Source: Rhizoclosmatium globosum (Eukaryota; Chytridiomycota; Chytridiomycetes; Chytridiales; Chytriomycetaceae). From it: a stretch of DNA of 64,000 nt. Each line of letters opens with the position of its first letter. Position 1 is the first letter of the stretch. Under the pieces are notes generated by a model. The model worked only from the letters and a program-made list of their open reading frames with translations, was not told the DNA's origin and made no database searches. Location of the stretch: assembly GCA_002104985.1 (NCBI GenBank), contig MCGO01000011.1:186001-250000 (forward strand), in the 5' to 3' direction. Positions 1,817 to 35,488 of the stretch are shown in pieces. Made by a program: the position numbers and the translations under genes.

Positions 1817-2026
1817 GCTGTATCAATACCCCACTCAAGTATCAACTGATTCAGCACACCATTCATACAAAAACTTAGGGAATGAAACGTGTATAAAAGT
1901 GGCTCAAACAGCGTTAAATTCAAAGCAACGACTTAACAGACTAGGTTGTGAAAATTAAAGTGACTATATATTGGAAAGAAACGTCTGACCACCGGGAACC
2001 TGAGAAAATTGTAAATCTGACGAATA

Positions 2027-5000: not shown

Positions 5001-5278
5001 TGAAAAAGATTGCAAAATTGGCAACAGAACGAGAGAAAATGATGCACAAACAACGAGAGAAAGAAGGAGGGGGGCCCATTTTCATCAAGAAAGCAAATTC
5101 AATGAGCAAAGCGGGAAGAAGCCAGGCACGAAGCGTTGGGGGAATTATTCGACAGTCAGTCACGGTGTGGGGAATGATTATGAACTTACATCAGCTATAC
5201 GTCGCTAACGTGTCCAGCAGCTCCACGGGAGGCCAAGTGCAAGATAGGAAAGTATGTGGATTGTCATCCACTCGCTGA
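2027..5278 (+). CDS. cyclic-nucleotide-gated / HCN-like cation channel (channel 1)
   Basis: Six exons: 2027-3745, 3795-4147, 4193-4253, 4304-4525, 4575-4830 and 4881-5278; phases agree and give 1,002 residues. A long Ser-rich cytosolic N-terminus (about 470 residues) precedes S1-S3 (end of exon 1). Exon 2 has an S4 with Arg at every third place (LRLIRFIR), then S5 and a pore reading FFQAVGNIFP, not the GYG/GFG of K+-selective channels. S6 leads into an HCN-type C-linker (YAVFVGYISS, then GRLYQQKMEEL and KYRGKYFEEDTLL). The cyclic-nucleotide-binding roll follows, with RDEIFFSRIATVLHARYFIPGD-like strands and the GDSGLDMYFI segment. It would sit in the plasma membrane and respond to cGMP/cAMP, as expected in zoospores (family knowledge). 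The extreme C-terminus after about 5160 is uncertain: its last bases overlap the antisense end of the repeat-borne gene, and the stop lies only 15 bases before the repeat. Confidence 0.8.
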
Positions 5279-8200
5279 GTTCCTCGGTAGTCATCCTCAG
5301 CCTGCCTCGAAGTGGGACCAATCCCACCTTCGTCCAATCTCCCTTCCACCTCCTCCACCACAACATACTCTAAACGACCTTTTACAATTCGCTGCTTCTT
5401 TGCAGGCGGTAGTTTGGAGTCACTGCCACTTGGTCCTCCATTTCCCTCACTGCTTCGACTTCCACCACTTCGTCCACTCCCTCTACCTCTCCCTCCACCT
5501 CTCCCTCCTCCCGGTCCTCCACCACCCGGATCGCCGTTTCCGTCATTGTTTTCAGCACCTCCTGTCCCACCGCCTCGAATGTGGTGATGAACCCGCATCA
5601 ACGCAATCGCCCACGTTAGATTCTCAATGAATAAGCCGCTTTTGATGTCGCGTGGGAGACGGAAGGTGAGGCCATCACGCGAAGTAACTGCACGACCACT
5701 GCACCGTGGGTTGGAGCATTTGAATGTCTTGGCCTTCCCGATTCGTGAGATGCGACCGCAGAAGCACATGATTGTTGACCCAATCTAGAAAACAGTGAAC
5801 AGGTTAAATAAAGTAAAATACATGAGACTCTTACTTCAGTCACTATGACTACAGCCTTGATCTTTCCAACTCTGCCAACAAGAGGAAACGCAGGATCAAA
5901 TTCTTTGGCCATGATTTTTTTCATTGTGGGTGTATTCCAGGCAGGTCCACCAGGATTAAAGAACGCGCCGTCATTTTCCGACTTTTTGTACGCCATTACT
6001 GTGGTTTGTTTCCTGATGGAAGCATGAGCCGCATATGAAAGGACCGTCTTGACCCATTCTAAGACAGAGGAGGTTAGATTCAAAATTAAGTGATCAATCA
6101 CACTCACTTGGAATACCATCCTTCCCAGAAGTCACTTTCTTGTTTGTGGTTTTGGAGTTGAAGTCAGAAGTAGCGTATGAGTCTGCACCAGAATTCCATT
6201 CCGCGGCAGATCGGCGAACTCGTTGAGCGTACTTGTTCAATTTGTCCTGCGTGTTCTTGAGCAGCCGTGACAAAAGGTTTGTGTCGTCTCCACCACCGCC
6301 TCCATCACCACCTCCATCAAAAGTGACATTGAATTCATTTCGGATCTTTTTCAACTCCTTATCCACTCTCCCCACTTCATCCAGAAAATCATTTTCCTCC
6401 TCCACCACATTCATGTCATCTGGGCCAGGAGTTGGTTTACGAACCATTCTTGCTGACGCGCGAAGATCCTTCAACCTAGCGTCCAATTCCTGTTCCGCTA
6501 CAAGTACAAGATTTTCCAGTCGCAATTTTTCTTTTGATACAACTTGATCACCAGAGGCGTATTGAACAAGATCCAGTACAGCAGCAGCGACAAGACTCCG
6601 TAACTCCACCACAGCCTCAAGTTGATCAATGGCTCTGTCTCGAAACGATTGAAGTGTGCTGATGCGTTTCTGAAGACGACAAATCACTGCCTCAAATCCG
6701 ACTCCAATCTGAACAACATGACCAGTGCTCGCCATCTGCGTTTCTACTGTTCTCCCACCTGGATCACTGCTCAACAATAAACGAGATGTTCCAAACGCAT
6801 TCCGAAACGCAGACTGAACCGCTTTTGATGGATTTGTGATCCAAACATCAGGACTGTGGAAGGATCCCATCCGAGATTTGAATAGTTCAGTATCTTCAGC
6901 ATGCACTGCGCCCAATTTGACAGAGTCGTAACGAAAAGATCCAAAGTTGTGTTGCCGAGAATAAACAATCATGGCATCTTCCAGTTTGCGGCGGTGCTTT
7001 GCAGAACATTCATTCTGAATTCGATTTCGGATGTACCGAACCAAGTGCGATGCATGCCAATATTCCTCGCGTGCCTTCAAGTTTGATGGATTTGCAGCAT
7101 AGTATTTTCGAGTCTCAGCCATCTCTTTCAAAGAATCTGACAATAACTCTTGGACTTCATTAAAGCTGACATCAATGGAATTGCGGTTGACTGCGGGTGT
7201 TGTTGTTGGATAATGTCGAGGGGCGTTTTTGTATGAATATTGTTTCGTAATCTGTCCTAATTCTTTGGTGTTCATGTGGTGAGTTTGAAGCGGCAACATT
7301 GATTTGAAGATTCCAGTTTCCCTGTCATACGTAATGCTGATTGCACCTGGCCTATACGTCACGAATTTATTCTTGGACGTCGGGAAGTTGATTGTTGAGT
7401 TCTTTGTCAGACGAAGGTGGATGACATTCCTTGCACTCGCAAATATCTTGAATCCCAGTGGATGAACAACAAGCCTCTGACAGAGCGGACCTCCTTTTTC
7501 TAAAGCCAGACGTATCAAGTTCAGGTAATGCAAATTGACAGAAGGGAAATTAGGCGGCCATGGAATCTCTCTGGTGGGTTCATCACAAGAATCAAGGAAA
7601 TAGCCTTCAATGTGTGGAGCTGTTTGTTTGTTCTGATCAAAGACTGCAGACTGCATCCCCCGAACTTGAGAGTCAGGCAGTCTGGGAAATATGGTGTGAC
7701 CATCAACCGAGAGATAACGACGATTTGAGTGGCTGAACTGTTCATGGAATGATTTTCCTGGTTGAGTGTGTTGGATTAGGAAAGTGGAATGAAAGAGATG
7801 ATGTCAGAGAAAGGAAAAAAGATTACCTAATTTCAGGCCAGTAGTAGCCCATGTCTTGTATCTGGCAATAGCGCCTTTGAACGCACCCTGCACAACACCT
7901 GTGTTGTTGAGCTGTTCACCAACCTTGTTTTCCAAGAATCCTTCATTCCCAAACAACAGATACTTGCTCTTACTCAGCTTAAATATATCAGTGAACAAGT
8001 TTAAAAGATCATCTCGGCATAAATGTGTGATGTTGACATATGGTGTTGAAGATATTAGTCGTGTTCCAGTTTCCAGACACAAGCCCCACTGAACAGGCTG
8101 GATATATTGGAGAATAGAGGTCTTGAACGAGGTTCGTAGTTGAGCCAGAGTTAGCTGGGAGTTGTCCTCTGGGGCTTCGTCTTCTTCAACCACTCCCTCT

Positions 8201-11200
8201 TCCATTTGAACTCCAACACCTACGCCAACTCCAACTCCAACTCCAACAGGTATTTCAACATCAATTTCTTTCACAGGCTTGATGACAAATGAAACGACAA
8301 GAGCATCGAGAAACTGGGAAAGAGCCTTGGCGTAAAAGTTGCCTCCGACAGCAGGCCGAACTCCAGTGATGATTGCTGGATGCCTGTAACGCTCTATATT
8401 ATTCCGCGACTGTATAGTATCATCGATTCCATTTTCCACTTGATAGACAGGCAAATTCATGACATACTGATAGATGGAAAGTTCATGTGGACTCAAAGAA
8501 CTCAGATTCACTTGATGATCAGTACCAACCAGAAACCCATCAACCATGCTGAACGGGCCAGTTTCGATAATCACATTCATGGCTCTTGTGGTACCAAGCT
8601 CTGCATCAGTCAAAGGGACTTTGGAATCAGGGAAGCGATTAAACAAGAGATTCGAAAAACATTGTGCAGCATCTTGAAGAAATTGAACTGGTATGGCTTG
8701 ACCAACACCTGGTGCAAGCCGAACTCGATAAACAACCTCTCCAGATGAATCTTCACTTGTATTCTGTTGGCGTGGAACATAGTCCTCATTATCTCCACCC
8801 TGAAGACTTTCTTCATCATCACTATTGTCTGCTTTAGCCTCCTTTGCAGCCTTCTTTTCTCTCTTCAAGTCATCTTCAAGCCAGATGCTCAGACTCAGTT
8901 TCAACGCTGAGATGCTGGAGTCCTTCAAGTACACTGCAAGGTAATGTTCCTTGTTGGGGATGTTGAAGCCAGATTATGGATCTAAAAGTTGAGTAACAAC
9001 AGCAGTCCTTAAGAGCGCGAGCTGTTTGGCAGAGTGGTCTGTTGGATAATACCAACAATGTCCAGAATCGGTGATGAACCCAACAGCTCCGTCATTCATT
9101 TCTTCTTCCCAAACTTGGAGTGATTCACTGGTATTTGCTGCTCCCAACAACATGGCCAAGATGATCATTCGATCCCAACAACTCGACTTTGAAAGTTTGA
9201 GCCCATCAAGTTCTGTGACAATATCAAACAGAATTCTCAGTGGATTTGAATTTTTATCTCCAAACAGGTCGCGTATAATCTCAAGAAGATGTTGAGGTTG
9301 CTGGCCAGCAGACAGACAATTATTCTCAATCTCAGGGCTCTGGTTTCTTTTGAATGTTGGAGAGTCCAGAAACGATAATATTCTGTGGTGGACTGGAAAC
9401 TGATTCTGATCTTCGGGCGGACCATTTTGAAGTCTGATGTTTACAGCGGCTGCATGCAACTTGTTGAACAAATTGATGGTTCCAGGAGTAAGAACATGGA
9501 CAGTGTCAAAGATCAAGGTTGAAAGATCCACGTAAGCTTTGAGTGACTGTCTTTCAGCTTCGTTTGGAACCGTTCCTATTCAACAAAAGGGAAAGAATAA
9601 GAGAAATGAAGAGGAGTATAAAGATATCAAAGACATAAAGTAAACATACCATAAGCTACATATGTATTCAAGAAATGCTGTTCGTGGTCTTTCTTGTCAA
9701 CCGTCATCCTTTTCCGCTCCAGTATCATGTCGGCTTGTGCGGCAGTCATGTCCCTAAAACCAGAAAAGATCAGTTCTTTGATGACAACAATGAAGTTGAA
9801 GAATGCTCACGCAAGATCAATCTGTTCTTGGGTTGCATCATCAGCAAGGTTGCGACGGTTCACAAACGCTTGTTTCAGCTGACGTTCCTGCTCTTCTTTG
9901 AGAATCTTGATTACTTTGGGAGCCATTTGTTTCAGCTTTTTGTTGTCTAGTTCAAAGATGGAAGTGTCAATCTCGCGTCGAGGTTGTTTCTAGGTATTTG
10001 GGTTAGGTTACATAACGTTCTGTAATTCAAACATTATACCAAGACTTGAACTTCCTCAATGCGGCCTTCACACTTGGTCTCGTCACTCTTGGTCTCAAAA
10101 TCTCCAGTCTTGTTCTGTTTGAAAAGCGGCAGAAACAAGGCCTCGTATTGATTGTTGTTGGACCAGTTACGCGGAACCTCGCCCAGTTGCGGAACTCGTT
10201 GTGAAGGCATAGTACCAGACAAGTGGGCTCCTTTGTATCCACGAGTGTGTTTGAAGGTAAATTTGGACCCATCTGAGGAAACAACAACTGGACGGATATT
10301 CAAGACTTTTGAATCAGACGGAAGAATATTGGTTTGAAGTGTCAGATTCGGAAAGTTGTGCTGAGGAAATACAAAATCCCAGTCTTCATCATTGAAGCGC
10401 TCTTGAACTCTTTGATGCAGGACAAAATCAAGAGTCAGCTGCGCACCACCTTCAAAACGTTGCTCCATATACTGCAGAGTTTCTTCCAGCTTTAACCACC
10501 TTTGAACTACTGCGCGCATGTTCACATATCCAAGCTTCGAGATAGACTGAGGAGACGACATGGATTGTGCGACCCGACCTCGACCAAAGTGGGTTGCGAT
10601 TGCTGCATTCAAAACAAGATTGTTGGAATTCTTGAACTTTGGGTGACGGGACAAGAGCTTCCTTATGACTGTATTGAAGTTGTTGCGATACACAGAGGCA
10701 TTGTCTTGACTGATAGACACAGAAACAAGAGAGGCAGGTTGTTCATGTACCAAGCCAGCAACAAAGTTTTGGATTCCAACAGCAACAGAGTGACCTCGAA
10801 CACGTCGAAGAGTATCATTCCAAGCTGGAGAAATAAGTTCATTCCATAGATAGACTTGGGTCTTGTTTCCGCCAGGACTTATGAACGACTGAGAAATGGA
10901 ATAGAGTCTTTGATGCGGCTCTTTCCCCACGTGGAGCAAATGAGTTGTTTGAGATCGAAAATCCCGAAGAACCACAGTCTCGCCCATAAGAATTGAGTGA
11001 AGACCCAACACTTTGATTTTGGCAGAAACAGGTTGGTTCTTGGTGGGGTTGAAAGACGTTGTAGCCAGCACTTGAAACAAAGGTAGAATCTATTGTTGAA
11101 TGCTCGGTTTTAATAATTGGAAAGAAGTGGAAGAATAGAAAAACATACATGTGATATCTTTGAATCCTTATTCTTGAAGAACACAACACCAAGCTCCGTA

Positions 11201-14200
11201 GCTCCTGAAAACGTCATTGGTTCTTTGGTGAAATCAGGTGCTTTCGAATAATGCTTGAACAAGACAGACCCAGAACACCATTCTCCATTTGTAAACGTTG
11301 GCCCATTGTCAGCAAGCCCGTTCAGTAACGTCAATGCTGATTGGAATACGTGATGCATACCATTCTTTTGTACTTTGAGGCTGCGACCAACAACCTTCTT
11401 GTTGAGCAAAGAAAGTCCAATCAACATTAGTTTGCTCAAGTCCATCAGCTCTGTGTAGTTTTCAGAAGACTGGAGAAATGATGCAGGACTGATTGGAGTG
11501 GCATCAATGAACAGCTGACACTCTCCCAATCCTTGTCAAATGATGAGTTTCGATACTTGGTTTAACAACAAACACTCACCATGTGCCTCTCCCATCTCAA
11601 CGTCTTCATTATCGTGCAAAACGTCAACACCACCAACAACAACGTTTCCAACTGCATCAACTTGAAGATCAAGACGGTGCTGGTTGTCCTGAGCAACTTG
11701 GACTCGGTGTTGATGAATTGGGGTGTTCAATAAACGCGCACTGTTTGTCCAGTGCAGAGTTTCCACAATAACCCCAGTCACATTCTTGATCCCGCCCTTC
11801 TTGTTGTACTGCTGAACTGCACCAAACAACTCTATTGCCTCCTTGTCGCTCAGCTTGGATTTATTGGCTGCTGCGAAATCAAGTCGGTGCGCCAAATACG
11901 GACCATAGCTTTGAGAAACGTCTTGATTCTTCACGGCGTGATATACGTTAGTCAAGTCAACGTCAGTCGGATCACCATTTGTGAATGCCTGCCAGGTAGC
12001 AGCCAGTTGGCGAAGAACAATAAAGTCATGAAGTTTAAGCTCCCGATTTGTCATGGCTGTCCGTGGAGGTTTCAACTGTTTTCCATTGTTGGTCTTGATC
12101 CAAATTGGGTAACTGCCTGGACGCATAGAGTGAGCTGCTGTTGCTGGATGATTGACTGAGTATACGTGACTTGATCCCATTTCGAAAGCCTGGTTTACTA
12201 GACGAGCGTCCATAATCCCAAGCGACGTGACACAGCGAGAGGCGTCAGAACCAGCCACCAATTGTCGATTCACAACTGAGTTGGCACTTGTGGATGGAGT
12301 GACAGTAGCATTTGGATCAGCCAGAGTCGGAGAATCTGGAGAATCTGGAGAATCAGGAGCAAGGGGAGCAACAGGGGCAACAGGAGATACAAGGGCTACG
12401 GGAGCGACAGAAGCAACAGAAGCAACGGGAAAAACGGGAGCAACAGGAGCTACGGGAGCAATGGGAACAGTAGGAACAGCGGTAACGGCTGGATCATAGT
12501 TTGGATGTGACTCAATCATATGTCGAATCAAGTCTTGACAATATCCATCTTGAAGGCAGACAGGACAAGTATCGTCCTATAACAGTATACCACATAAGTA
12601 AAATATAAAATTGGCAAGATTCAAAACAAACCGTTGATCCAGCTTTGGGTGAGTTTGAAATCAGTCGAGCAAGATGGTTGTTGAAAAGATTGGCATCTGT
12701 GTATGATCCTATCGAGGGAACAGTAGACCGTAATGAAGCAGGTCGATGAAAATGTTGAGCCAACAGGTGAGCTTCAAACGCAGCCAATGTTGCAGCGTCA
12801 CTTGACTTTTGGTGAGAAGTTCGACACAGTGGACAGAAGCCATTCTAAGTGTTGAAATTAGTATGACAAACAAAATGAAATATCATACCAAGAAGTGTTG
12901 TTCGGTAAAGACCTCTGCAAGTCGATAATCTTGATTCTGCAATTTGTCCATTAGTATGAAGTGCTCCTTCTTCCAAGCTGCTCCGCTGTCTGGTCGAGGA
13001 CGTTGAGGCCAGCTTCCAAAAACAGAGCTACTTTGTCTTTCTTGTCTTCCCCCACCAAGTACATTGGATGTTCTGCCAACATCTCTGACTCCACCACCTC
13101 CAAGTACATTGGATGACCTTCCGAGAATTCCAAGTCCACCACTGCTGACAGACGTGAATTGTTTGTCCGCGACAAACAAACTTTGACTCCCGCTCCGACC
13201 TCCACCAATACCAGTAGAACCATTCCTGTTCCCACTTCCACCTCCACTTCCACTTCCACCTCCACCTCCACCTCCACCTCCACCTCCACCTCCACCTCCA
13301 CCTCCACCTCCACCTCCACCTTCACCTCCACCTCCACTCCCACCAACACCAGTAGAACCACCACCGTTCCCATTCCCACCAGCACCAGCACCAGCAGCAA
13401 CACCAACACCAACGCCAACACCAACATCAACATCAACATCAACATCAATCTCTGGTTCATCCATCAAAGAAGCAGCACCAGCCTTGACCATGAGCGCCAA
13501 AGTCACTTTGTACATGGCTTCGTGAATGGCCTCAACATTGGCAACCTTCTTTCCAAGAACTGGTTCCGCACACACACCAACGTCCAGGAGTATCTTTGGA
13601 CAGAACAGATACCTAAAAAGGAAAACGCGTCAACTCTAACAAGACTAATATAAAAAGAGAACTAACCGATTCAGCGACAAGATAAACACAACAGTCGGAA
13701 CAACGTTTCGCCTTCGAGATACCAACTCCTGCCTAAACTGTTCCAACCTTCCACTCAGAGGGAATATAGTAGCGGCGTGAGTTTCTCGCAGCACATCAAA
13801 AGTTGCTTGATTGATACTGTAGCTCCAGTCCCCTGTGAAACAGCTGCAGTGATCCAATCCATCAATCATACCCTGAGGACACTTGTACAGTTGAGGTACT
13901 ATACTGAACTGCGTTTCACCCTCCAGATTGTTTTCAGCATTGAGTCTACGCACGGAAATAATGCGATTACGAATCGCAATCAAGGCAGACCCAGCTGGAT
14001 GAATGAACCCAAACTGAGATTCAAAAGAGGCCAGAGCTTCATGGATGGTCATACTATCAATAGTATCCAAAAAGGATTGACAAATAAGTAGCGACTGTGA
14101 TGTACTCAAGAACCTATCATAAGCACGAGCAAACAAACGATAGCGTGGCCTCAAGGTGTTGGGAATAAACGACGTGCTGCCATCAACGTAGATAGAACCT

Positions 14201-17200
14201 TGAGGTACTTTGACGCGGGTCAGAGACAAAGGCTCCTATTACGAAACAAAAATACCATGGTTAGAATCACGATGAGAGACATTTTGCTAAACTCACCATT
14301 GGTACCGGATCCGAAGGAGGATCCTCTTCAACATCATCTGCACCGTCATCTTCCATTGCTCTCTTTCCTTTCCCTTTCGTCACTTTCCCTTTCGTCGCTT
14401 TTGCTTTTGTTGCTTTCGCCTTCAATGGTTTTGCAGGTGGGTTTGACTCTTTTGCTTTCTTGCTCCCTTTTCCAGCAGCTGAAATGAATGGAGCCGTACC
14501 GTAGCCAAGATCCAAATCTGCCAGGTCTTGCTCGAGCTCAAACAGATCAACAGAATCAAAGCTGTCCAGATTCAAAGTTGTGGTTCCGATCAGCAAATCT
14601 TCCAGTCCGTTATCAGAGTCCACATCCGAATCCACCTCCAAGTCCACCTCCAAGTCCACGTCTGAGCCCGCGTCTGAGCCCGCGTCTGAGTCCGCGTCTG
14701 AGTCCACCTCCAAGTCCACCACACCCAAGTCCAAGTCAGAGTCATTGGAGTCATCGAAACCAAATCGCTGAAACCAATCAAGTAGTTCGGAATCAATGTC
14801 ACTGACCTTATCATCAAGAGTTAGATTCAACAGAGCATCAATCAAGATATTACCTCTCCGTCAGCCAAAGATTCAGGGTCGGAATTGTTACACGTTGAGG
14901 GTTCACTTTCCGTCTCTGAATCAGACACAATAAACGAAACATATTCTGATATTTGAGCGGGAGGAGCAGACAGTGTGGACGCAAGGCCCGACTCGGCTTC
15001 CACGGTTTGAGACAAGGCAGAAGGAATAAAAGTCGCATCAAAGCCAGACATTTCGAATGGAGCGTATTCAGGCAACGGAGAAGCAGTCAAAACGGAAATA
15101 GAACTTGTTCCGCTTTCGACTGCACCAGAAGTGGCTAACATGTTGGACCTCAGTGGGACAGTCGTCTCTTCGTCAGACTGATAATCTATTTGGTTCAGAT
15201 TCTTTGGTGTTGGTGTTGCTGCTACGTCGAGGTAATCACCGCGTGATATAGTCGCAGAAGAGTCGCCGACGTTGAGATCAGAATCCTAAAAAACCAGTGA
15301 GACAACACTATTTCGAGCACAAAAAGAAAAAAACTTACAGTTGTGGATGATTGGCGGGAATAATGGAAGGGGCGACGACCTCGGCGAGAATATGGCTGGA
15401 TTGGGCTGAAACTTGGGACAGATGAACCACCCACTGATGAACCACTAAGAGATGGAAGCTCATTGGACTCATCACGAAGAGGAACAGACGGTGGTTCTTG
15501 ACTTTCGACGGGTGATGCATCAGTACTGGATGAACCAACTTTTTGGCTAGGGTCAGTACTTGAGTACATATTATCGGCTCCTCCAGGTAGTTTCCCAACA
15601 AATCTGATAGTGGAGTCAACAACGAGATTATACGCTAAATTAAAAATGTTAGATCACATCTAAACAAAACATTACAAACGTACACGAGAGTAAATGAGAG
15701 TCATCCATATACTGTCCTCCAAAGACCAACTGAAGCGAAAAAGCATTCGCAACATTTCTGGACTGGACGAGATAATTTCGAAGCTCAAGAACAGTGGCGT
15801 CTTGCCGAATCTCGACAAACAAATGCTTCCCGTCCAGCAATTTGACAAAGAACGCCAGGACTTGAGTCAAACGCGTATTGAAGCTTGTTTTAATAATAGC
15901 TTGTTTTTCCATCACATTTGGTGCAGCATCTGAAGCTTCAAAGATAGCCAGTGCAAGTGCGGGTGATGGAATCCAATCATGATGCGACATGGATTGCAAA
16001 GAGAACCAGGATGCGTTTGTTTTGATTACAGTCTTGGACTGGAGTTGCTGGACCAGTGTTGGTGGCGGAGGCGGAGTTGGAGGAGGAGGAGGTTCTGGTG
16101 GAAGACTGTGGCCCTGAGGTATGGTAATGGCAGCGTTACTTGAGTCAACAACCTCGAGTGGAATTGATAAACCTATTAAATTATAATGGATGAGAAATAG
16201 TGTAAAGAGATTGTGTCGAATAGTTACCAAGTTCAGGAAGCATACGTGGTAGAATGAAGTCAATCAAGGTGATTGGTTCATACGGTGGCAAGTAAAGTCT
16301 TGCTTTTTTGATGCCTAAAGACGGGATTGGTGGAGTTGTGACAACAGACGATATTGAGTGACGATGTAATGAAGCAGACAGCCAATTCAATGACGGGATA
16401 TCACCCATTGCAGGATGAAAGATGGAAGGAGACCATGAAGGGGATAATTGAGGATTCATGTCCGAGAACCAAATCCCAGAATAGCGATGACTTTTCTTTG
16501 TAGATGGAATATTGGTTTGGTCAGACGTCGTCTGTGACAGACGAGGATTTGGAGACGCGGTGGTTGGAATTATGGCAGGATTCAAAATGACTGAATCGGA
16601 CTGGTTGGAAGCAGGAATTGGAGTGGAGGTCTTGGTGGTATTTGATGGGCTGTGTGGCTTTGGACGTGATGCAAGACGAACAAGAGTACTGGGATTTAGT
16701 CCAAGGCCTGACCCAACAATTAGCTCTAGACACCTTAAATAAATTGAATCTTACCTGAGAGTGTTGCACCAGATGTTAATCGCTTCCAGTGTCGGCCAGG
16801 TCGATACAGTTGGAGGCCTTCAACTGGGAGGCCAACAGCCGCAGATGCAGCCTGCTTTGCTTCCAGCACAGTTGAATCGTTGGAGACAAGAACCATAACG
16901 ATTGATCCATTTGGTACGATAACAGATAGATAAAACTTGGCGTCCAGTGACAACAGCTTCGAAGGCACTGATAACCAACTGGACAGCCAAGAGTAGCAGA
17001 CATACTTGATGAGATCCAACGGCCCGCCAATAATAAAGCCACAGAAGACCAGTAGTGAGTAGAACGGGAGAACAAGGTTCTCATAACGAGCAACTAACTC
17101 AGCAACACGAATCTCCTGGATAAGTCGTTCGTAGCCAGAGAGCAACTCGATCAGTTGAGAGAGCTTCAGTTCCTTGGCCACGGCCTTGAGACTCCTCTTG

Positions 17201-17879
17201 GCCCAAGACTTGTGTCGGCGATGTTCTTTCCTTCTTCGTTCATATTGGGCAGGTCCAAAGAGAGGATGATTCCTCAACCATTTTGAGTGGAACTTGAACT
17301 GGAGACGCAGTGAGTTCTGAAATAGAAATCTTTCCCAAACAAGTAGAAAGAATGGAAGAGGGCATGAGATGGACACGGAAAGGAGTGACGAGATTGAGAG
17401 TTTCAAGGTGATCTGGGTGGAGAAACAAACGTTAGAAATGCGATTCAAGAGGACACAAGAATCGTACCTGCGTGTCCACAAGTGGAAGACAGATTGAAGC
17501 CAAGATTCCTCCCACGGTGGTTGGCGACCAGTGTTTGGAACCCCTGATTACATTCACTTGGACAATGGACGTCAAACACCGACAAATGATCAGAGAGAGA
17601 CCACGGAACGAATAGGATACTATGTGTCAATATTGTCAGTAATGCTTATTGCGATTCAGGAGACACGACACACCTCCAGCAGTAAAGACCTTCGAAAGGA
17701 AGGAAAAGAGAGCGACGACGGAGAAAGAGAATAGCATCGTTTAAGTCTATTTGGATCTTTAGTATTAGTGCTTAAATCAAGAAGAAGAGGAAAGGCATGG
17801 TAGGAATTAGGCGTAGGTAGCCTCTGCAAGGTTCCACTCCTTCACCAACAACAAACATTTGACACAACCACAGATTCAT
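5191..17879 (-). CDS. giant Fanzor/TnpB-like RuvC nuclease protein, copy 1 (one premature stop)
   Basis: Hand splicing gives 21 exons, 5' to 3': 17846-17879, 17468-17619, 16755-17412, 16228-16707, 15684-16172, 15339-15634, 14854-15285, 14297-14767, 13667-14235, 12889-13612, 12632-12844, 11580-12576, 11149-11531, 10040-11089, 9811-9989, 9650-9753, 7827-9575, 6108-7757, 5835-6058, 5191-5784 (plus the short first exon). Every intron is GT-AG and all phases agree over about 3,815 codons. Order: hydrophobic N-terminus, ubiquitin-like domain 1 (about 220-297), ubiquitin-like domain 2 (about 548-624, ending KLPGG), acidic and Gly/Val repeats, two CxxC zinc fingers (about 1436-1531), Pro-Val-Ala repeats, then the C-terminal nuclease. 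RuvC-I Asp is residue 3325 ([12 protein letters not shown]), RuvC-II Glu 3618, zinc ribbon Cys 3625/3627/3641/3646, RuvC-III Asp 3664 (LPRDIKSG; Asp 3655 is an alternative). A TAA at 8974-8976 (codon 2611) replaces the GAA of copy 2. The first two exons and the C-terminal tail past 5294 are uncertain. Confidence 0.7.
5308..5332 (-). ncRNA. terminal hairpin, candidate end of a guide-RNA scaffold (copy 1)
   Basis: CGAAG-TGGGA (5308-5317) pairs perfectly with TCCCA-c-CTTCG (5322-5332), a ten-pair stem with a 4-base loop and one bulged C. It sits 14 bases inside the element edge, at the 3' end of the nuclease gene. In TnpB/Fanzor elements the guide scaffold occupies this position and the guide is read from the flank just outside. 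The same hairpin is at 22591-22615 in copy 2. It is also coding sequence as I read it, so the RNA role is inference. Confidence 0.4.
5647..6800 (-). other. RuvC / zinc-ribbon nuclease core of copy 1
   Basis: This is the catalytic end of the giant protein. RuvC-I Asp codon is 6763-6765 within [12 protein letters not shown], followed by [20 protein letters not shown], which matches the TnpB/Fanzor pattern DPGxRT...G.vv.IG.g....i.rL..ri. A coiled-coil insert of about 200 residues separates it from RuvC-II (AVVIVTE, Glu codon 5835-5837, last codon of its exon). Splicing then joins Glu to [12 protein letters not shown], giving the E-x-x-S-x-x-C-x-C form. The zinc ribbon closes with FKCSNPRC and RuvC-III is [10 protein letters not shown] (Asp codon 5647-5649). 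A basic stretch [12 protein letters not shown] beyond a Gly-rich linker could be a nuclear signal. All four catalytic/zinc elements are unchanged in copy 2. Confidence 0.78.
12290..12500 (-). repeat. Pro-Val-Ala-Pro coding repeat
   Basis: Nine-to-twelve-base units (on the plus strand GGAGCAACA/GGAGCTACG) encode a run of APV/VAP followed by [10 protein letters not shown] in copy 1, all in frame. In copy 2 the tract at 29580-29900 has been rearranged: the unit with GGATCAGCCAGAG is duplicated and the frame is lost there. Confidence 0.8.
12502..12844 (-). other. two CxxC/His zinc fingers of the giant protein (copy 1)
   Basis: Finger 1 starts an exon ([12 protein letters not shown], with His in AHLLAQHFH about 20 residues on). 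Finger 2 starts the next exon ([12 protein letters not shown], then LIRHMIESH). Both are C2H2-like. They sit just before the Pro-Val-Ala repeat tract and could bind nucleic acid; the binding role is inference. Confidence 0.5.
13200..13480 (-). repeat. Gly-rich / Val-Gly coding minisatellite, length differs between copies
   Basis: A CACCTC/CACTTC hexamer array (densest at 13246-13325) and CAACATCAACACCAAC-type repeats encode Gly-Gly-Gly and Asp-Val/Gly-Val runs in the giant protein. The matching stretch in copy 2 (about 30660-30810) is clearly shorter. Long open frames on the opposite strand are by-products of the repeat. Confidence 0.85.
14600..14740 (-). repeat. acidic Asp-Ser / Asp-Val coding repeat
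   Basis: Tandem TCCACCTCCAAG and TCTGAGCCCGCG units encode Asp/Ser/Val/Gly-rich acidic repeats. Copy 2 (about 31975-32050) has fewer units. Copy-number change keeps the frame because the units are multiples of three. Confidence 0.8.
15577..15856 (-). other. ubiquitin-like domain 2 of the giant protein, ending LPGG (copy 1)
   Basis: [20 protein letters not shown]...[36 protein letters not shown] matches ubiquitin segment by segment: FVKtLtGK, the LiFaGkqleD turn, LsdYNi, stl.lv.rLrGG (established family pattern). The domain crosses an intron at 15635-15683 and the match is only seen after splicing. It is followed by more protein, so a Gly-Gly processing site in the middle of the chain is conceivable but unproven. 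Confidence 0.65.
16671..16938 (-). other. ubiquitin-like domain 1 of the giant protein (copy 1)
   Basis: Spread over two exons joined by a 47-base intron. The pattern [10 protein letters not shown]...[17 protein letters not shown]...[13 protein letters not shown]...[22 protein letters not shown] follows the ubiquitin fold: beta hairpin, helix, the L-x-L-x strand, and the tL..lGl..gstl.lv.RprP ending. It follows a hydrophobic, possibly membrane-associated N-terminal stretch. It has no terminal Gly-Gly, so it is likely a structural or interaction module. Confidence 0.6.
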
Positions 17880-18164
17880 AGGGAAGGAGGAGTGAATAAC
17901 CGATGGTATCAAGAGGAATTGAAGGGTGAGATATGGGCAGATGGGATCGTAATCAAATTGAGTGGGGGACGGTGGTCCAGACCAATGACAATCCAGATCA
18001 CGGAATGAGAGGATGCCGTAAGATCGCAGAGGACTCAAGGTGAACAAACAGTCCTCAATCAACGACAACTAACGCTCGCAGCTTTAAGAAGGGAAGGGAA
18101 GGTAAGGGACGAAGGGGAAAGGGGATTCACTTGCAAGCGTTTGTTCAAATTTGTGAGGATTTTC

Positions 18165-18912
18165 AAAATTTGTCTCCCTTATTGAAAAGGAAGAGGAAAG
18201 AGAATGAACAGAAAATATATGGCATTATCACCTCGTTGTTGAAACCCTTGTTTCAGTCCTTAAAAAAAGGCAGTATTTTGCACTATTAGCGATGACTGGA
18301 TCAGTTTGAGGGATATTGCAGCAAAAGAAACCACATTTATTCATTGCTTTATGTACGAAAAATTGTCGTCGAAAGGATTTGTTGGAAAAGATTTTGTTTA
18401 CTTTGGGCCTTTCTGTCCAGAAGACCTTCGACTGCCTTCTGATGGTCAGATTGTAAATAACCATCGGAGAGGCCAACAACATTAAAATATCAAAACCATT
18501 CTGCTGAAGCGTTTTCGTCATTGTTATGCACATTGGCTCCCTTTTTTCACATATCATGGCCAGCCTTGTCACTTTGAAACGGTTCAATAGCAAAACCAGC
18601 ACTTCCGGCGTTCCGCCCATGGTATCCAATTGCATATAGTATGGGTATTTTATGCGATCTTAGAGGCCGTATTGTGACTGCTGAGATTCGATATCCCGTT
18701 ATGTCACCAAAAAGCGCGATCACATCTAATTGCAAGTTAAATCATTGAATTTCTAGCTAATGGCTGACCTGTGTGTGATTCGGCAATAGGAACGATTGTT
18801 TGGCTGACGACATAACCGCCATTGATGGTCCCAAACTTGTCTCGGGTAGCAACGTTGAATCGCTTAACATTGATGTGAACATTTGGAAGTATATTCGGAT
18901 TTCGTTGGTGTC
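18165..18912 (-). pseudogene. fragment of class C GPCR ligand-binding (ANF-receptor) domain
   Basis: Reading on the minus strand from 18912, HQRNPNILPNVHINVKRFNV, then GGYVVSQTIVPIAESHT, an intron (18726-18768), then DVIALFGDITGYRISAV and SHKIP. This is the type I periplasmic-binding/ANF receptor pattern found at the N-terminus of GABA-B-like receptors. A TGA follows near 18550 and the remaining 380 bases show only broken frames. No ATG or upstream exon is visible, and the 3' end is cut off by the right edge of element copy 1. It is a decayed fragment; the transmembrane part is absent here. Confidence 0.6.
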
Positions 18913-20471: not shown

Positions 20472-20641
20472 CCTCAATTTTCAGAGAGTTTCTCCCACGT
20501 GTTAATTGTGTGTCATCAGACTTTGACAGTTGTGTAATGATCCGTAATTATCCGCACTGGCGTGCAAATCTGTTATATTCTGTATGGCCCAAAGGAAGAT
20601 TTACATCCGAAAGGCTCAACTCTTTTCTCAACTATCTTTTG

Positions 20642-22576: not shown

Positions 22577-25500
22577 TCCTCAGCCTGCCTCGAAGTGGGA
22601 CCAATCCCACCTTCGTCCAATCTCCCTTCCACCTCCTCCACCACAACATACTCTAAACGACCTTTTACAATTCGCTGCTTCTTTGCAGGCGGTAGTTTGG
22701 AGTCACTGTCACTTGGTCCTCCATTTCCCTCACTGCCTCGACTTCCACCACTTCGTCCACTCCCTCCACCTCTCCCTCCTCCCGGTCCTCCACCACCCGG
22801 ATCGCCGTTTCCATCATTGTTTTCAGCACCGCCTGTCCCACCACCTCGAATGTGGTGATGAACCCGCATCAACGCAATCGCCCACGTTAGATTCTCAATG
22901 AATAAGCCGCTTTTGATGTCGCGTGGGAGACGGAAGGTTAGGCTATCACGCGAAGAAACTGCACGACCACTGCACCGTGGGTTGGAGCATTTGAATGTCT
23001 TGGCCTTCCCGATTCGTGAGATGCGACCGCAAAAGCACATGATTGTTGACCCAATCTAGTGAACAGTGAACAGGTTAAATAAAGTAAAATGTATGAGACT
23101 CTTACTTCAGTCACTATGACTACAGCCTTGATCTTTCCAACTCTGCCAACAAGAGGAAACGCAGGATCAAATTCTTTGGCCATGATTTTCTTCATTGTGC
23201 GTGTATTCCAGGCAGGTCCACCAGGATTAAAGAATGCGCCGTCATTTTCTGACTTTTTGTACGCCATTACTGTGGTTTGTTTCCTGATGGAAGCATGAGC
23301 CGCATATGAAAGGACAGTCTTGACCCATTCTAAGACAGAGGAGGTTAGATTCAAAATTAAGTGATCAATGACACTCACTTGGAATACCATCCTTCCCAGA
23401 AGTCACTTTCTTGTTTGTGGTTTTGGAGTTGAAGTCAGAAGTAGCGTATGAGTCAGCACCAGAATTCCATTCCGCGGCAGATCGGCGAACTCGTTGAGCG
23501 TACTTGTTCAATTTGTCCTGCGTGTTCTTGAGCAGCCGTGACAAAAGGTTTGTGTCGTCTCCACCACCGCCTCCATCACCACCTCCATCAAAAGTGACAT
23601 TGAATTCATTTCGGATCTTTTTCAACTCCTTATCCACTCTCCCCACTTCATCCAGAAAATCATTTTCCTCCTCCACCACATTCATGTCATCTGGGCCAGG
23701 AGTTGGTTTACGAACCATTCTTGCTGACGCGCGAAGATCCTTCAACCTAGCGTCCAATTCCTGTTCCGCTACAAGTACAAGATTTTCCAGTCGCAATGTT
23801 TCTTTTGATACAACTTGATCACCAGAGGCGTATTGAACAAGATCCAGTACAGCAGCAGCGACAAGACTCCGTAACTCCACCACAGCCTCAAGTTGATCAA
23901 TGGCTCTGTCTCGAAACGATTGAAGTGTGCTGATGCGTTTCTGAAGACGACAAATCACTGCTTCAAATCCGACTCCAATCTGGACAACATGGCCAGTGCT
24001 CGCCATCTGCGTTTCCACTGTTCTCCCACCTGGATCACTGCTCAACAATAAACGAGATGTTCCAAACGCATTCCGAAACGCAGACTGAACCGCTTCTGAT
24101 GGATTCGTGATCCAAACATCAGGACTGTGGAAGGATCCCATCCGAGATTTGAATAGTTCAGTATCTTCAGCATGTACTGCGCCCAATTTGACAGAGTCGT
24201 AACGAAAAGATCCAAAGTTGTGTTGCCGAGAATAAACAATCATGGCATCTTCCAGTTTGCGGCGGTGCTTTGCAGAACATTCATTCTGAATTCGATTTCG
24301 GATGTACCGAACCAAGTGCGATGCATGCCGATATTCCTCGCGTGCCTTCAAGTTTGATGGATTTCCAGCATAGTATTTTCGAGTCTCAGCCATCTCTTTC
24401 AAAGAATCTGACAATAACTCTTGGACTTCATTAAAGCTGACATCAATGGAATTGCGGTTGACTGCGGGTGTTGTTGTTGGATAATGTCGAGGGGCGTTTT
24501 TGTATGAATATTGTTTCGTAATCTGTCCTAATTCTTTGGTGTTCATGTGGTGAGTTTGAAGCGGCAACATTGATTTGAAGATTCCAGTTTCCCTGTCATA
24601 CGTAATGCTGATTGCACCTGGCCTATACGTCACGAATTTATTCTTGGACGTCGGGAAGTTGATTGTTGAGTTCTTTGTCAGACGAAGGTGGATGACATTC
24701 CTTGCACTCGCAAATATCTTGAATCCCAGTGGATGAACAACAAGCCTCTGACAGAGCGGACCTCCTTTTTCTAAAGCCAGACGCATCAAGTTCAAGTAAT
24801 GCAAATTGACAGAAGGGAAACTAGGCGGCCATGGAATGTCTCTGGTGGGTTCATCACAAGAATCAAGGAAATAGCCTTCAATGTGTGGAGCTGTTTGTTT
24901 GTTCTGATCAAAGACTGCAGACTGCATCCCCCGAACTTGAGAGTCAGGAAGTCTGGGAAATATGGTGTGACCATCAACCGAGAGATATCGACGATTTGAG
25001 TGGCTGAACTGTTCATGGAATGATTTTCCTGGTTGAATGTGTTGGATTAGGAAAGTGGAATGAAAGAGATGATGTCAGATACAGAAAAAAAAAAAGATTA
25101 CCTAATTTCAGGCCAGTTGTAGCCCATGTCTTGTATCTGGCAATAGCGCCTTTGAACGCACCCTGCACAACACCTGCGTTGTTGAGCTGTTCACCAACCT
25201 TGTTTTCCAAGAATCCTTCATTCCCAAACAACAAATACTTGCTCTTGCTCAGCTTAAATATATCAGTGAACAAGTTTACAAGATCATCTCGGCATAAATG
25301 TGTGATGTTGACATATGGTGTAGAAGATACTAGTCGTGTTCCAGTTTCCAGACACAAGCCCCACTGAACAGGCTGGATATATTGGAGAATAGAGGTCTTG
25401 AACGAGGTTCGTAGTTGAGCAAGTGTTAGCTGGGAGTTGTCCTCTGGGGCTTCGTCTTCTTCATCCACTCCCTCTTCCATTTGAACTCCAACACCTCCGC

Positions 25501-28500
25501 CAACTCCAACTCCAACTCCAGCAGGTATTTCAACATCAATTTCTTTCACGGGCTTGATGACAAATGAAACGACAAGAGCATCGAGAAACTGGGAAAGAGC
25601 CTTGGCGTAAAAGTTGCCTCCGACAGCAGGCCGAACTCCAGTGATGATTGCTGGATGCCTGTAACGCTCTATATTATTCCGCGACTGTATAGTATCATCG
25701 ATTCCATTTTCCACTTGATAGGCAGGCAAATTCATGACATACTGATAGATGGAAAGTTCATGTGGACTCAAAGAACTCAGATTCACTTGATGATCAGTAC
25801 CAACCAGAAACCCATCAACCATGCTGAACGGGCCAGTTTCGATAATCACATTCATGGCTCTAGTGGTACCAAGCTCTGCATCAGTCAAAGGGACTTTGGA
25901 ATCAAGGAAGCGATTAAACAAGAGATTCGAAAAACATTGTGCAGCATCTTGAAGATTTTGAACTGGTATAACTTGACCAACACCTGGTGCAAGCCGAACT
26001 CGATAAACAACCTCTCCAGATGAATCTTCACTTGTATTCTGTTGGCGTGGAACATAGTCCTCATTATCTCCACCCTGAAGACTTTCTTCATCATCACTAC
26101 TGTCTGCTTTAGCCGCCTTTGCAGCCTTCTTTTCTCTCTTCAAGTCATCTTCAAGCCAGATGCTCAGACTCAGTTTCAACGCTGAGATGCTAGAGTCCTT
26201 CAAATACACTGCAAGGTAATGTTCCTTGTTGGGGATGTTGAAGCCAGATTCTGGATCCAAAAGTTGAGTAACAACAGCAGTCCTTAAGAGCGCGAGCTGT
26301 TTGGCAGAGTGGTCTGTTGGATAATACCAATACTGTCCAGAATCGGTGATGAACCCAACAGCTCCGTCATTCATTTCTTCTTCCCAAACTTGGAGTGATT
26401 CACTGGTATTTGCTGCTCCCAACAACATGGCCAAGATGATCATTCGATCCCAACAACTCGACTTTGAAAGTTTGAGCCCATCAAGTTCTGTGACAATATC
26501 AAACAGAATTCTCAGTGGATTTGAATTTTTATCTCCAAACAGGTCGCGTAGAATCTCAAGAAGATGTTGAGGTTGCTGGCCAGCAGACAGACAATTATTC
26601 TCAATCTCAGGGCTCTGGTTTCTTTTGAATGTTGGAGAGTCCAGAAACGATAATATTCTGTGGTGGACTGGAAACTGATTCTGATCTTCGGGCGGACCAT
26701 TTTGAAGTCTGATGTTTACAGCGGCTGCATGCAACTTGTTGAACAAATTGATGGTTCCAGGAGTAAGAACATGGACAGTGTCAAAGATCAAGGTTGAAAG
26801 ATCCACGTAAGCTTTGAGTGACTGTCTTTCAGCTTCGTTTGGAACCGTTCCTATTCAACAAAAGGGAAAGAATAAGAGAATATAAAGATATCAAAGACAT
26901 AAAGTAAACATACCATAAGCTACATATGTATTCAAGAAATGCTGTTCGTGGTCTTTCTTGTCAACCGTCATCCTTTTCCGCTCCAGTATCATGTCGGCTT
27001 GTGCGGCAGTCATGTCCCTAAAACCAGAAAAGGTCAGTTCTTTGATTACAACGTCAAAGTGAAACAACACTTACGCAAGATCAATCTGTTCTTGGGTTGC
27101 ATCATCAGCAAGGTTGCGACGGTTCACAAACGCTTGTTTCAGGTGACGTTCCTGCTCTTCCTTGAGAATCTTGATTACTTTGGGAGCCATTTGTTTTATC
27201 TTTTTGTTGTCTAGTTCAAAGATGGAAGTGTCAATCTCGCGTCGAGGTTGTTTCTAGGTATTTGGGTTAGGTTACATAACGTTCTGTAATTCAAACATTA
27301 TACCAAGACTTGAACTTCCTCAATGCGGCCTTGACTCTTGGTCTCGTCACTCTTGGTCTCAAAATCTCCAGTCTTGTTCTGTTTGAAAAGCGGCAGAAAC
27401 AAGGCCTCGTATTGATTGTTGTTGGACCAGTTACGCGGAACCTCGCCCAGTTGCGGAACTCGTTGTGAAGGCATAGTACCAGACAAGTGGGCTCCTTTGT
27501 ATCCACGAGTGTGTTTGAAGGTAAATTTGGACCCATCTGAGGAAACAACAACTGGACGGATATTCAAGACTTTTGAATCAGACGGAAGAATATTGGTTTG
27601 AAGTGTCAGATTCGGAAAGTTGTGCTGAGGAAATACAAAATCCCAGTCTTCATCATTGAAGCGCTCTTGAACTCTTTGATGCAGGACAAAATCAAGAGTC
27701 AGCTGCGCGCCACCTTCAAAACGTTGCTCCATATAAGGCGGAGTTTCTTCCAGCTTTAACCACCTTTGAACTACTGCGCGCATGTTCACATATCCAAGCT
27801 TCGAGATAGACTGAGGAGACGACATGGATTGTGCGACCCGACCTCGACCAAAGTGGGTTGCGATTGCTGCATTCAAAACAAGATTGTTGGAATTCTTGAA
27901 CTTTGGGTGACGGGACAAGAGCTTCCTTATGACTGTGTTGAAGTTGTTGCGATACACAGAGGCATTGTCTTGATTGACAGGCACAGAAACAAGAGAGGCA
28001 GGCTGTTCATGCACCAAGCCAGCACCAAAGTTTTGGATTCCAACAGCAACAGAGTGACCTCGAACACGTCGAAGAGTATCATTCCAAGCTGGAGAAATAA
28101 GTTCATTCCATAGATAGACTTGGGTCTTGTTGCCGCCAGGACTTATGAACGACTGAGAAATGGAATAGAGTCTTTGATGCGACTCTTTCCCCACGTGGAG
28201 CAAATGAGTTGTTTGAGATCGGAAATCCCGAAGAACCACAGTCTCACCCATAAGAATTGAGTGAAGACCCAACACTTTGATTTTGGCAGAGACAGGTTGG
28301 TTCTTGGTGGGGTTGAAAGAAGTTGTAGCCAGCACTTGAAACAAAGGTAGAATCTATTGTTGAATGCTCGGTTTTAATACTTGGAAAGAAGTGGAAGAAT
28401 AGAAAAACATACATGTGATATCTTTGAATCCTTATTCTTGAAGAACACAACACCAAGCTCCGTAGCTCCTGAAAACGTCATTGGTTCTTTGGTGAAATCA

Positions 28501-34500: not shown

Positions 34501-35201
34501 AGTTCCTTGGCCACGGCTTTGAGACTCCTCTTGGCCCAAGACTTGTGTCGGCGATGTTCTTTCCTTCTTCGTTTGTATTGGGCAGGTCCAAAGAGAGGAT
34601 GATTTCTCAACCATTTTGAGAGGAACTTGAACTGGAGACGCAGTGAGTTCTGAAATAGAAATCTTTCCCAAACAAGTAGGAAGAATGGAAGAGGGCATGA
34701 GATGGACACGGAAAGGAGTGACGAGATTGAGAGTTTCAAGGTGATCTGGGTGGAGAAACAAACGTTAGAAATGCGATTCAAGAGGACACAAGAATCGTAC
34801 CTGCGTGTCCACAAGTGGAAGACAGATTGAAGCAAAGAATCCTCCCACGGTGGTTGGAGACCAATGTTTGAAACCCCTGATTACATTCACTTGGACAATG
34901 GACGTCAAACACCGACAAATGATGAGCGAGAGACATCGGAACGAATAGGATACTATGTGTCAATATTGTCAGTAATGCTTATTGCGATTCAGGAGACACG
35001 ACACACCTCCAGTAAAGACCTTCGAAAGGAAGGAAAAGAGAGCGACGACGGAGAAAGAGAATAGCATCGTTTAAGTCTATTTGGATCTTTAGTATTAGTG
35101 CTTAAATCAAGAAGAAGAGGAAAGGCATGGTAGGAATTAGGTGTAGATAGCCTCTGCAAGGTTCCACTCGTAACAAACATTTGACACAACCACAGATTCA
35201 T
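22577..35201 (-). CDS. giant Fanzor/TnpB-like RuvC nuclease protein, copy 2 (frameshifted)
   Basis: Same exon structure as copy 1; introns and splice sites correspond throughout, except at the 5' end, where a small deletion near 35168-35173 removes the donor used in copy 1. Exon 25091?-26839 is open here where copy 1 has a TAA. Two other lesions are present: a C-run of four at 30478-30481 where copy 1 has five (13049-13053), shifting the frame after TSNVLGG; and a rearranged Pro-Val-Ala repeat that shifts the frame at about 29700-29712. The nuclease end is intact: RuvC-I Asp codon 24034-24036, RuvC-II Glu, zinc ribbon and RD motif as in copy 1. The frame runs straight through the element edge and stops in the flank, adding about 20 residues different from copy 1. 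Start and first exons are tentative. Confidence 0.65.
22591..22615 (-). ncRNA. terminal hairpin, candidate end of a guide-RNA scaffold (copy 2)
   Basis: Identical to the hairpin of copy 1 (ten pairs, one bulge), 14 bases inside the element edge. The sequence just outside on the minus strand reads AAAAGTATCTAAAATAGTCC, whereas copy 1 reads TGACTACCGAGGAACTC. If the TnpB/Fanzor layout holds, these different flanks would be the guides. Confidence 0.4.
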
Positions 35202-35488
35202 AGGGAAGGAGGAGTGAATAACCGATGGTATCAAGAGGAATTGAAGGGTGAGATATGGGCAGATGGGATCGTAATCAAATTGAGTGGGGGACGGTGGTCC
35301 AGACCAATGACAATCCAGATCACAGAATGAGAGGATGCCGTAAGATCGCAGAGGACTCAAGGTGAACAAACAGTCCTCAATCAACGACAACTAACGCTCG
35401 CAGCTTGAAGAAGGGAAGGGGAGGGGAGGGACGAAGGGGAAAAAGGGGATTCACTTGCAAGCGTTTGTTCAAATTTGTGAGGATTTTC

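Follow-up and report, generated by a model that had tools for sequence, protein, structure and literature searches.

The window analysed here, a stretch of 64,000 nucleotides (nt) from the chytrid fungus Rhizoclosmatium globosum (G000:C13:186001-250000), carries two copies of a ~13-kb element that is present in ~20 dispersed copies in the genome. Copy A occupies 5167..18337 on the minus strand, with limits set by comparing element ends between copies, and contains a single gene of 20 exons read in one frame (5188..17737, minus strand), whose predicted product ends in a region with signature residues of the Fanzor/TnpB nucleases. The 3′ limit of copy A takes in an 18-nt tail common to copy C3 and, loosely, to C10; its 5′ limit is uncertain, at 18286 (common with C11) or 18337 (common with C3). 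Copy B (22577..35488, minus strand), unseen in the preliminary description of this DNA, is 95-98% identical to copy A, is missing the conserved 3′ module described below, has rearranged exons 10-12 and sits within a second channel-like gene. In the searched genome (56.9 Mb in 420 contigs; all probe counts are lower bounds), a 1.5-kb nuclease probe finds at least 13 full, at least seven near-full and at least five partial places, which fall into four identity classes of 98-100, 93-94, 90-91 and 77-78%.

One open, selected frame in several element copies

The gene model was obtained by dynamic programming and then revised, the final exons being set by hand and mapped across copies. In copy A the exons lie on the minus strand at 17737-17674, 17619-17468, 17412-16755, 16707-16228, 16172-15684, 15634-15339 and 15285-14854 (exons 1-7); 14806-14297, 14235-13667, 13612-12889, 12844-12632, 12576-11580, 11531-11149 and 11089-10040 (exons 8-14); and 9989-9811, 9753-9650, 9575-7827, 7757-6108, 6058-5835 and 5784-5188 (exons 15-20). 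The chain has 3,838 residues, phases agree at every junction, and the introns measure 44-74 nt, with no intergenic gap. The preliminary description had proposed 21 exons agreeing in phase over one frame of ~3,800 residues; the frame holds, and the exon count becomes 20. A 21-exon model was rejected because its additional junction would bridge a nonsense codon that appears in copy A alone, an in-frame TAA at residue 2634 in exon 17 (8974..8976, minus strand). The automatic model splices round this codon and may in this way have given the 21st exon. The codon is covered in 11 of 13 other tested copies, all of them free of stops in exon 17; the remaining two, C9 and C10, are incomplete. Also set aside were automatic models in which the upstream reductase-like gene was absorbed or exon 20 was divided.

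The same frame recurs elsewhere in the genome. Exon-by-exon tblastn searches of 14 copies recover the exon order in the full-length ones and an exon 18 free of stops in all 14; L012, outside this set, carries two stop codons there. When splice sites are mapped by alignment in 11 further copies, donors are GT in 201 of 201 cases and acceptors AG in 200 of 204. Three of the misses concern the exon-12 acceptor in D1, D2 and D3, probably an alignment slip, and the fourth is exon 20 of D3, an exon not found by tblastn. The frame is open end to end in C3, C5 and C11 (3,811, 3,812 and 3,835 residues, respectively). Breaks or truncations appear in the alignment-based mapping of B, C4, C6, C7 and C8, and D1-D3 are incompletely mapped in this way; D1 is stop-free exon by exon in the tblastn searches except for exon 1, which was not found. 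Differences in exon length are multiples of three throughout C3 and C5 and up to the last exon in C11 and D1; some are not in C4, B, C7, C8 and D2.

Selection was estimated by the Nei-Gojobori method as the ratio of nonsynonymous to synonymous divergence (dN/dS). Between A and D1 the ratio is 0.255 overall and 0.17-0.39 across all seven segments, with dS of 0.45-1.2; the closely related pair A and C5 gives values of 0.12-0.60. Open phases combined with low dN/dS over the full length argue for a single long selected coding sequence. Two observations pull the other way: the A-to-C5 ratio climbs to 0.60 in exons 4-8, and, with gaps scored as differences, exon identities between A and D1 run from 44 to 85%, so that some exons (44-54%) are no more alike than the introns (56%).

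Could the region instead hold two or more neighbouring genes on one element, with no 3,800-residue chain? In favour of this, the public proteins that were found are fragmentary, at 536 and 549 residues, and the fastest evolution is seen in the N-terminal exons 4-8 (dN/dS 0.39 between A and D1). Against this, C3, C5 and C11 are stop-free in one frame across 20 exons, short introns are all that divides the exons, and public proteins themselves join several of the exons. P0001, an NCBI protein of R. globosum whose exon 18, 19 and 20 segments are 100% identical to the copy on contig C63, corresponds to the spliced end of copy C7, has the same introns 18 and 19 and joins exons 18-20; P0002 and P0003 join exons 17-18; and P0004 joins exons 15-17 to the segment carrying the DPG motif, omitting some 450 residues. 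P0003 and P0004 are annotated partial proteins from two other Rhizoclosmatium. We therefore regard separate genes as very unlikely, in line with the single gene of the preliminary description, for which the open frames and dN/dS argue. In several of the ~20 copies, the whole chain can be spliced into a single open frame that is under selection.

Simple repeats, Gly-rich and Asp/Val-rich, lie inside exons 10 and 8 (13200-13330 and 14600-14720, minus strand); their lengths differ between copies, mostly by multiples of three, the exceptions being C4 and, in B, exon 10.

A probable Fanzor/TnpB-type C-terminus

Within the last ~490 residues of the chain we find DPG, a glutamate six residues before a zinc ribbon, an [ST]T pair, four cysteines and RD. 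In copy A these residues outline a candidate RuvC and zinc-ribbon core at 5642..6768 (minus strand), interrupted by introns 18 and 19, in which the aspartate of DPG is encoded at 6765-6763, the glutamate at 5837-5835, the four cysteines from 5766 (the first at 5766-5764) and the aspartate of RD at 5649-5647. In C11 numbering, the order is D3349-P-G, E3639-IGSTIM-C3646-x-C3648-x13-C3662-x4-C3667, and RD at 3675-3676 and 3684-3685, that is, seven and again 16 residues after the last ribbon cysteine. The putative RuvC-I segment reads SSDPGGRT in C3, C5, C11, P0001, P0002 and P0004; P0003 stops short of DPG. DPGG, VIVTE joined over intron 19 to the cysteine segment, and LPRDIKSG all lie where the preliminary description had put them. 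It put the nuclease in the last ~15% of the chain; the span from DPG to the end is ~13%, and exons 18-20 are ~21%.

Two published definitions, taken from the accessible parts of their sources, provide a yardstick. Bao and Jurka (2013) define Fanzor/TnpB proteins by D-X(125,275)-[TS]-[TS]-X-X-[C4 zinc finger]-X(5,50)-RD (PMC3627910), and a fingerprint published in Nucleic Acids Research in 2023 combines DPG in RuvC-I with a glutamate six residues before the ribbon (PMC10711439). The giant chain has exactly the six-residue interval of the latter (E-IGSTIM-C), and S-T-I-M-C agrees with the [TS][TS]-x-x-C4-X(5,50)-RD part of the former once cysteine spacings are relaxed. None of 20,000 shuffled versions of the chain contains a relaxed form of either signature, and one of 20,000 contains the E-ribbon-D part by itself; the spacings had been widened post hoc, after sight of this sequence.

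A diverged, colinear paralog bears on both the core and its attachment to the rest of the chain. It lies at one place only (G000:C334:100415-106118), where the three tested segments keep the order they have in the giant: an exon 13-14 part (100415-101644, 29% identity, with one internal TAG, possibly in an intron), an exon 17 part (102308-103999, 24%) and the ribbon (105894-106118, 36%). At 34-36% identity, the ribbon region aligns with the glutamate, the [ST]T pair, one cysteine in each ribbon half and the second RD. Because the second RD is kept and the first is lost, the second is favoured as RuvC-III, the assignment already made in the preliminary description. A RuvC-I segment was neither found in the paralog by protein search nor readable in the C334 DNA, and the locus may be an ancient remnant or a copy that has been domesticated. 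Since the paralog is colinear, the middle region looks to have been joined to the nuclease before the element families seen here arose.

A second link runs through another zinc-ribbon family. The ribbon of L053 (G000:C89:41690-42490), with the pattern E-x6-CxxC...CxxxxC-RD, aligns with the giant's ribbon at a score of 59, which none of 3,000 shuffles equals, and L053 is in turn matched by PF07282, the TNB or OrfB zinc-ribbon family, at an expectation value (E) of 0.0013, below the curated cut-off. The giant is thus connected to PF07282 via L053.

Several results weigh against a Fanzor/TnpB identity. First, the spacing from D to [ST] is 292-295 residues in C3, C5 and C11, 17-20 beyond the published range of 125-275, and the ribbon reads CxC-x13-CxxxxC rather than CxxC...CxxC, its four cysteines being invariant in five aligned copies. 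The strict pattern DPGx(120,160)Ex6CxxCx(12,18)CxxCx(4,8)D fails in C3, C5 and C11. Second, the giant has no direct Fanzor/TnpB match among Pfam and NCBIfam models or PDB sequences, and none to PF07282 at E<=10; in a genome scan with PF07282, none of the 13 places listed is a copy of this element. Among the best 8,000 protein-database candidates by shared words there is no Fanzor/TnpB match, the only four proteins at E<=1 all being from Rhizoclosmatium, and a search in which 1,600 candidates were scored returned nothing. Finally, the C334 paralog lacks two of the four ribbon cysteines, besides the first RD.

These results could mean that the giant is real and mobile but ends in an unrelated zinc-binding or RNase H-like domain, its 3′ end being merely a transposon end. 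The missing PF07282, NCBIfam, PDB and protein-database matches speak for such a domain, as do the atypical cysteine and D-E spacings, the relaxation of signature spacings to fit, and a 3′ module in which neither RNA covariation nor unusual stability is seen (below). Several signature residues occurring together in none of 20,000 shuffles, the retention of E, [ST]T and the second RD in so distant a paralog, and the L053 link to PF07282 speak against it, and we judge an unrelated domain rather unlikely. Judged from its residues, the C-terminus is probably a highly divergent Fanzor/TnpB-type RuvC nuclease, with a D-E-D site plus a zinc ribbon. The assignment in the preliminary description thus keeps its signature residues and gains the L053 connection, while direct profile and sequence matches are missing; the profile search that it proposed placed the C-terminus neither with Fanzor/TnpB nor in another family.

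We found no second nuclease module inside the chain (best HH-suite probability 31%, over 10 columns; in Smith-Waterman alignment, 259 of 500 shuffles do as well) and no viral relative in IMG/VR scanned with P0001 and with a 737-residue open reading frame (ORF) of the same genome. That ORF belongs to a five-copy family of 737-741 residues (G000:C63:48880, C89:36922, C179:265604, C256:18315 and C413:86914), with a PF07282-type C-terminus (E 1.3e-4 in the member that was read) and an acidic insert separating VDEFKST from the ribbon; its members are possibly more ordinary Fanzor-like genes. Pairwise alignment does not support a similarity between this ORF and the giant core (2,345 of 3,000 shuffles do as well), and the ORF itself found nothing among 8,000 scored protein-database candidates. 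Two further zinc-ribbon ORF families, of 415 and 385 residues, are weakly seen by PF07282; they comprise L053 and loci at C334:93854, C223:518164, C399:330301, C410:472094 and three places on C201.

The 3′ module, element ends and mode of spread

The most uniform part of the element is its 3′ end. A terminal sequence ending in GTAAG or GTGAG is present at 17 of 20 loci, the exceptions without a 3′ anchor being L002 (copy B), L017 and L018. The last ~95 nt (5185..5280 in copy A, minus strand), which overlap the stop codon, have 95% mean column identity in an alignment of 19 sequences. Of these, 16 are copies, with the D group represented (16 of 17 anchored full copies, L005 being dropped as the same insertion as L004), and three come from the four anchored fragments (the shorter L050 being dropped). 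A one-base shift places C and D copies in another frame within the module, so its near-invariance points to a constraint that is not only on protein. Between A and D1, the last 60 nt are 97% identical and the preceding 60 nt 85%; dS in exon 20 is 0.45, versus 0.6-1.2 elsewhere. We regard the module as a candidate omega-RNA scaffold and/or transposon end. Tests for RNA structure lend no support to a fold: 24 predicted pairs show no compensatory change, and the folding energy is ordinary (z from -1.9 to +0.5 in five sequences). An 8-bp stem 3 nt before the 3′ end appears in three of five predicted folds.

Beyond the module lie tails of 18-28 nt that are lineage-specific and travel with the element. 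The tail of copy A, in guide position, occupies 5167..5184 (minus strand) and is common to C3. All six exact occurrences of one tail 20-mer are at element ends (two of the six being one insertion represented twice), as are all three of a 22-mer. The tail TTCATTTCCAATTTTAAAAG also matches two places outside known 3′ ends with 2 mismatches each, both beyond the first 15 nt; by rough arithmetic these matches are within chance, and they were not used as evidence of targeting.

The 5′ ends are less constant. The 3′ end matches at least 35 places, the RuvC-I segment at least 20 plus one partial, exon 3 over its length at least 17, and the A-type 5′ end (601-nt probe) at least 13, with ragged starts; D-type 5′ ends are too diverged for this probe, so that 35 versus 13 overstates truncation. 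A constant 3′ end accompanied by 5′-truncated copies, the pattern of Helitron2-type one-ended transposition, is nevertheless present, the 5′-end count missing the D-type ends. Of eight truncated places that were read, L046, L048, L049 and L050 each retain ~76-141 nt of the 3′ end, accompanied in two cases by a small separate element piece upstream, and a ~50-nt 3′ fragment adjoins copy D2. Also truncated are L045 (G000:C20:25000-26050) and L044 (G000:C168), which belong to another subfamily whose 3′ terminus differs; L045 is without intron 19, by its sequence through imprecise deletion rather than exact splicing.

Flank duplications of 13-33 nt occur near the ends of 5 of 13 insertions (p at most 0.03 relative to a null of 154 mismatched pairs, among them D2 paired with the overlapping fragment beside it). 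The other eight insertions have none, and four of the five duplications are imperfect, most being displaced from the ends; most insertions lack a clean target-site duplication, which counts against the reading preferred below. Many copies have a T-rich stretch on their 3′ side. No inverted repeats were noticed at element ends, a systematic search for them not having been made, and no Helitron terminus or Rep/helicase was identified in the element. A Pfam scan of C11, also counting against a mobile element of this kind, shows no transposase, Rep/helicase or reverse transcriptase.

Two other accounts of the copies need to be weighed. One is spread by target-primed reverse transcription in trans, in the manner of long interspersed nuclear elements, which we see as the main alternative to Helitron2-like one-ended transposition. 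The exact 3′ end with truncated fragments, the tails inherited from the donor and the duplications at 5 of 13 insertions would all suit it. Yet introns persist in the mapped copies, although passage through RNA would tend to remove them, an A-rich tail is absent from all 17 anchored ends, and Pfam detects no reverse transcriptase in the chain; the idea is possible but doubtful. The other account involves no transposon at all, only a tandem or segmental gene family produced by ordinary duplication. C4 and C5 share both flanks, so at least that pair is a duplicated segment or allele, and several copies are on common contigs. However, other copies have unrelated flanks from the same 3′ base or a few nt beyond, short 3′-end fragments sit at unrelated sites, and copy B interrupts another gene, making ordinary duplication extremely improbable as the general explanation.

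The gene around copy B is of the cyclic-nucleotide-gated channel type by sequence inspection. It lies on the plus strand at 20429-22480 and ~35500-36712, appears split by copy B and is a paralog of the gene at 2021-5180, with segments in 36253-36712 and 4362-4816 matching at 76-79%. Next to copy A, at 18950-20480 on the minus strand, is a gene that by inspection resembles the saccharopine-dehydrogenase/enoyl-reductase type. DNA upstream of copy A (18346-18912) recurs, partly inverted, downstream of copy C3 (G000:C13), as though flanking material had travelled with the element or close to it.

Upstream regions and a model for the element

The ~3,000 residues before the nuclease-like region contain a few recognisable features (coordinates on the minus strand of copy A). 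Exons 1-3 (16755..17737) encode three hydrophobic stretches in the first ~100 residues of C11, which by hydropathy may be membrane or signal segments, and perhaps a first ubiquitin-like fold (Pfam ubiquitin, a weak match at E 0.21). A ubiquitin-like domain with approximate limits 15595..15851, in exons 5-6, was scanned in C11; the copy A version differs much there. C11 residues 573-641 match PF00240 at E 1e-4 and 22.4 bits, just under the cut-off of 25.4. Two C2H2-like motifs recognised by inspection (CPLC...H...H and CPVC...H...H) lie in exons 11-12, approximately at 12490..12844, the second with a weak zf-Di19 match in C11 (E 0.072). Exons 12-17 (7827..12576) form a conserved middle region, with dN/dS of 0.19-0.21 and a counterpart in the paralog, that Pfam does not recognise. 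Copies, frames and selection together bear out the giant multidomain chain of the preliminary description, carried on a mobile multi-copy element and having nuclease-like motifs at its C-terminus.

Our preferred reading, to which we assign a probability of about 0.65, is that these copies form a ~13-kb Rhizoclosmatium mobile-element family with one 20-exon gene, a chain of ~3,800 residues, a probable Fanzor-type C-terminus, one-ended spread and a guide RNA from the 3′ module. The element would move by one-ended, 3′-anchored transposition, as do the Helitron2-like elements CRe-1, CRe-2 and CRe-3. The 3′ module and the next ~15-20 nt would be transcribed as a guide RNA for the C-terminal nuclease, cutting of guide-matched DNA would allow the element to be maintained or to spread, and the upstream part, with its hydrophobic, ubiquitin-like, zinc-finger and unrecognised regions, may help mobilisation or targeting. 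Sister copies would then share one guide, unlike elements guided by new host flank. A stronger form makes the family a one-protein RNA-guided transposon, in which the giant unites the nuclease with machinery for its own mobilisation, and the inherited 18-28-nt tail common to sister copies at different sites serves as the guide; as it stands, we think this unlikely to hold.

Comparisons with described systems, drawn from the accessible parts of the cited papers, show both likenesses and differences. The Fanzor1 proteins SpuFz1, GtFz1 and PpFz1 share with the giant DPG, the glutamate six before the ribbon, [ST]T, four cysteines and RD, and Fanzor1 elements likewise have a conserved 3′-end module followed by variable sequence in guide position. 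The SpuFz1 omega-RNA is 90 nt (PMC11423790) and its guide 15 nt (PMC10432273), the former similar in length to the ~95-nt module here, for which it is sequence conservation that is shown. The giant differs from Fanzor1 in its 292-295-residue spacing, atypical ribbon and inherited tails, and in scale: SPu-1-1p has 633 residues in a ~2.1-kb element with terminal inverted repeats and TA duplications (PMC3627910), versus ~3,800 residues in 13 kb. By analogy, the closest described behaviour is that of CRe-1, CRe-2 and CRe-3, Fanzor1-carrying elements of Chlamydomonas reinhardtii, which also have introns, one-ended transposition, 5′ truncation, variable-length flank duplications and a T-rich context; they have 5-10 exons, and the accessible text describes no giant fusion (PMC3627910). 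TnpB of IS607, the pro-Fanzors, shares the rare active site with DPG and an alternative E (PMC10711439), but is bacterial, and the giant has no profile match. The L053-type and 737-residue ORFs share the E-x6-C ribbon (L053) and weak PF07282 recognition, but are separate, smaller frames.

Titles and beginnings of abstracts found by searches of open-licence PMC papers contained no description of a giant Fanzor, and the layout is probably a variant of Fanzor-bearing transposon not found described before. More broadly, Fanzors described so far are compact RNA-guided nucleases captured by ordinary transposons. If our reading is true, Fanzor nucleases can also be built into large multidomain machines, here a conserved and mobile chain of ~3,800 residues. 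With ~20 natural copies, at least three of which have an intact frame, both the role of the upstream ~3,000 residues and the question of a heritable guide are directly testable.

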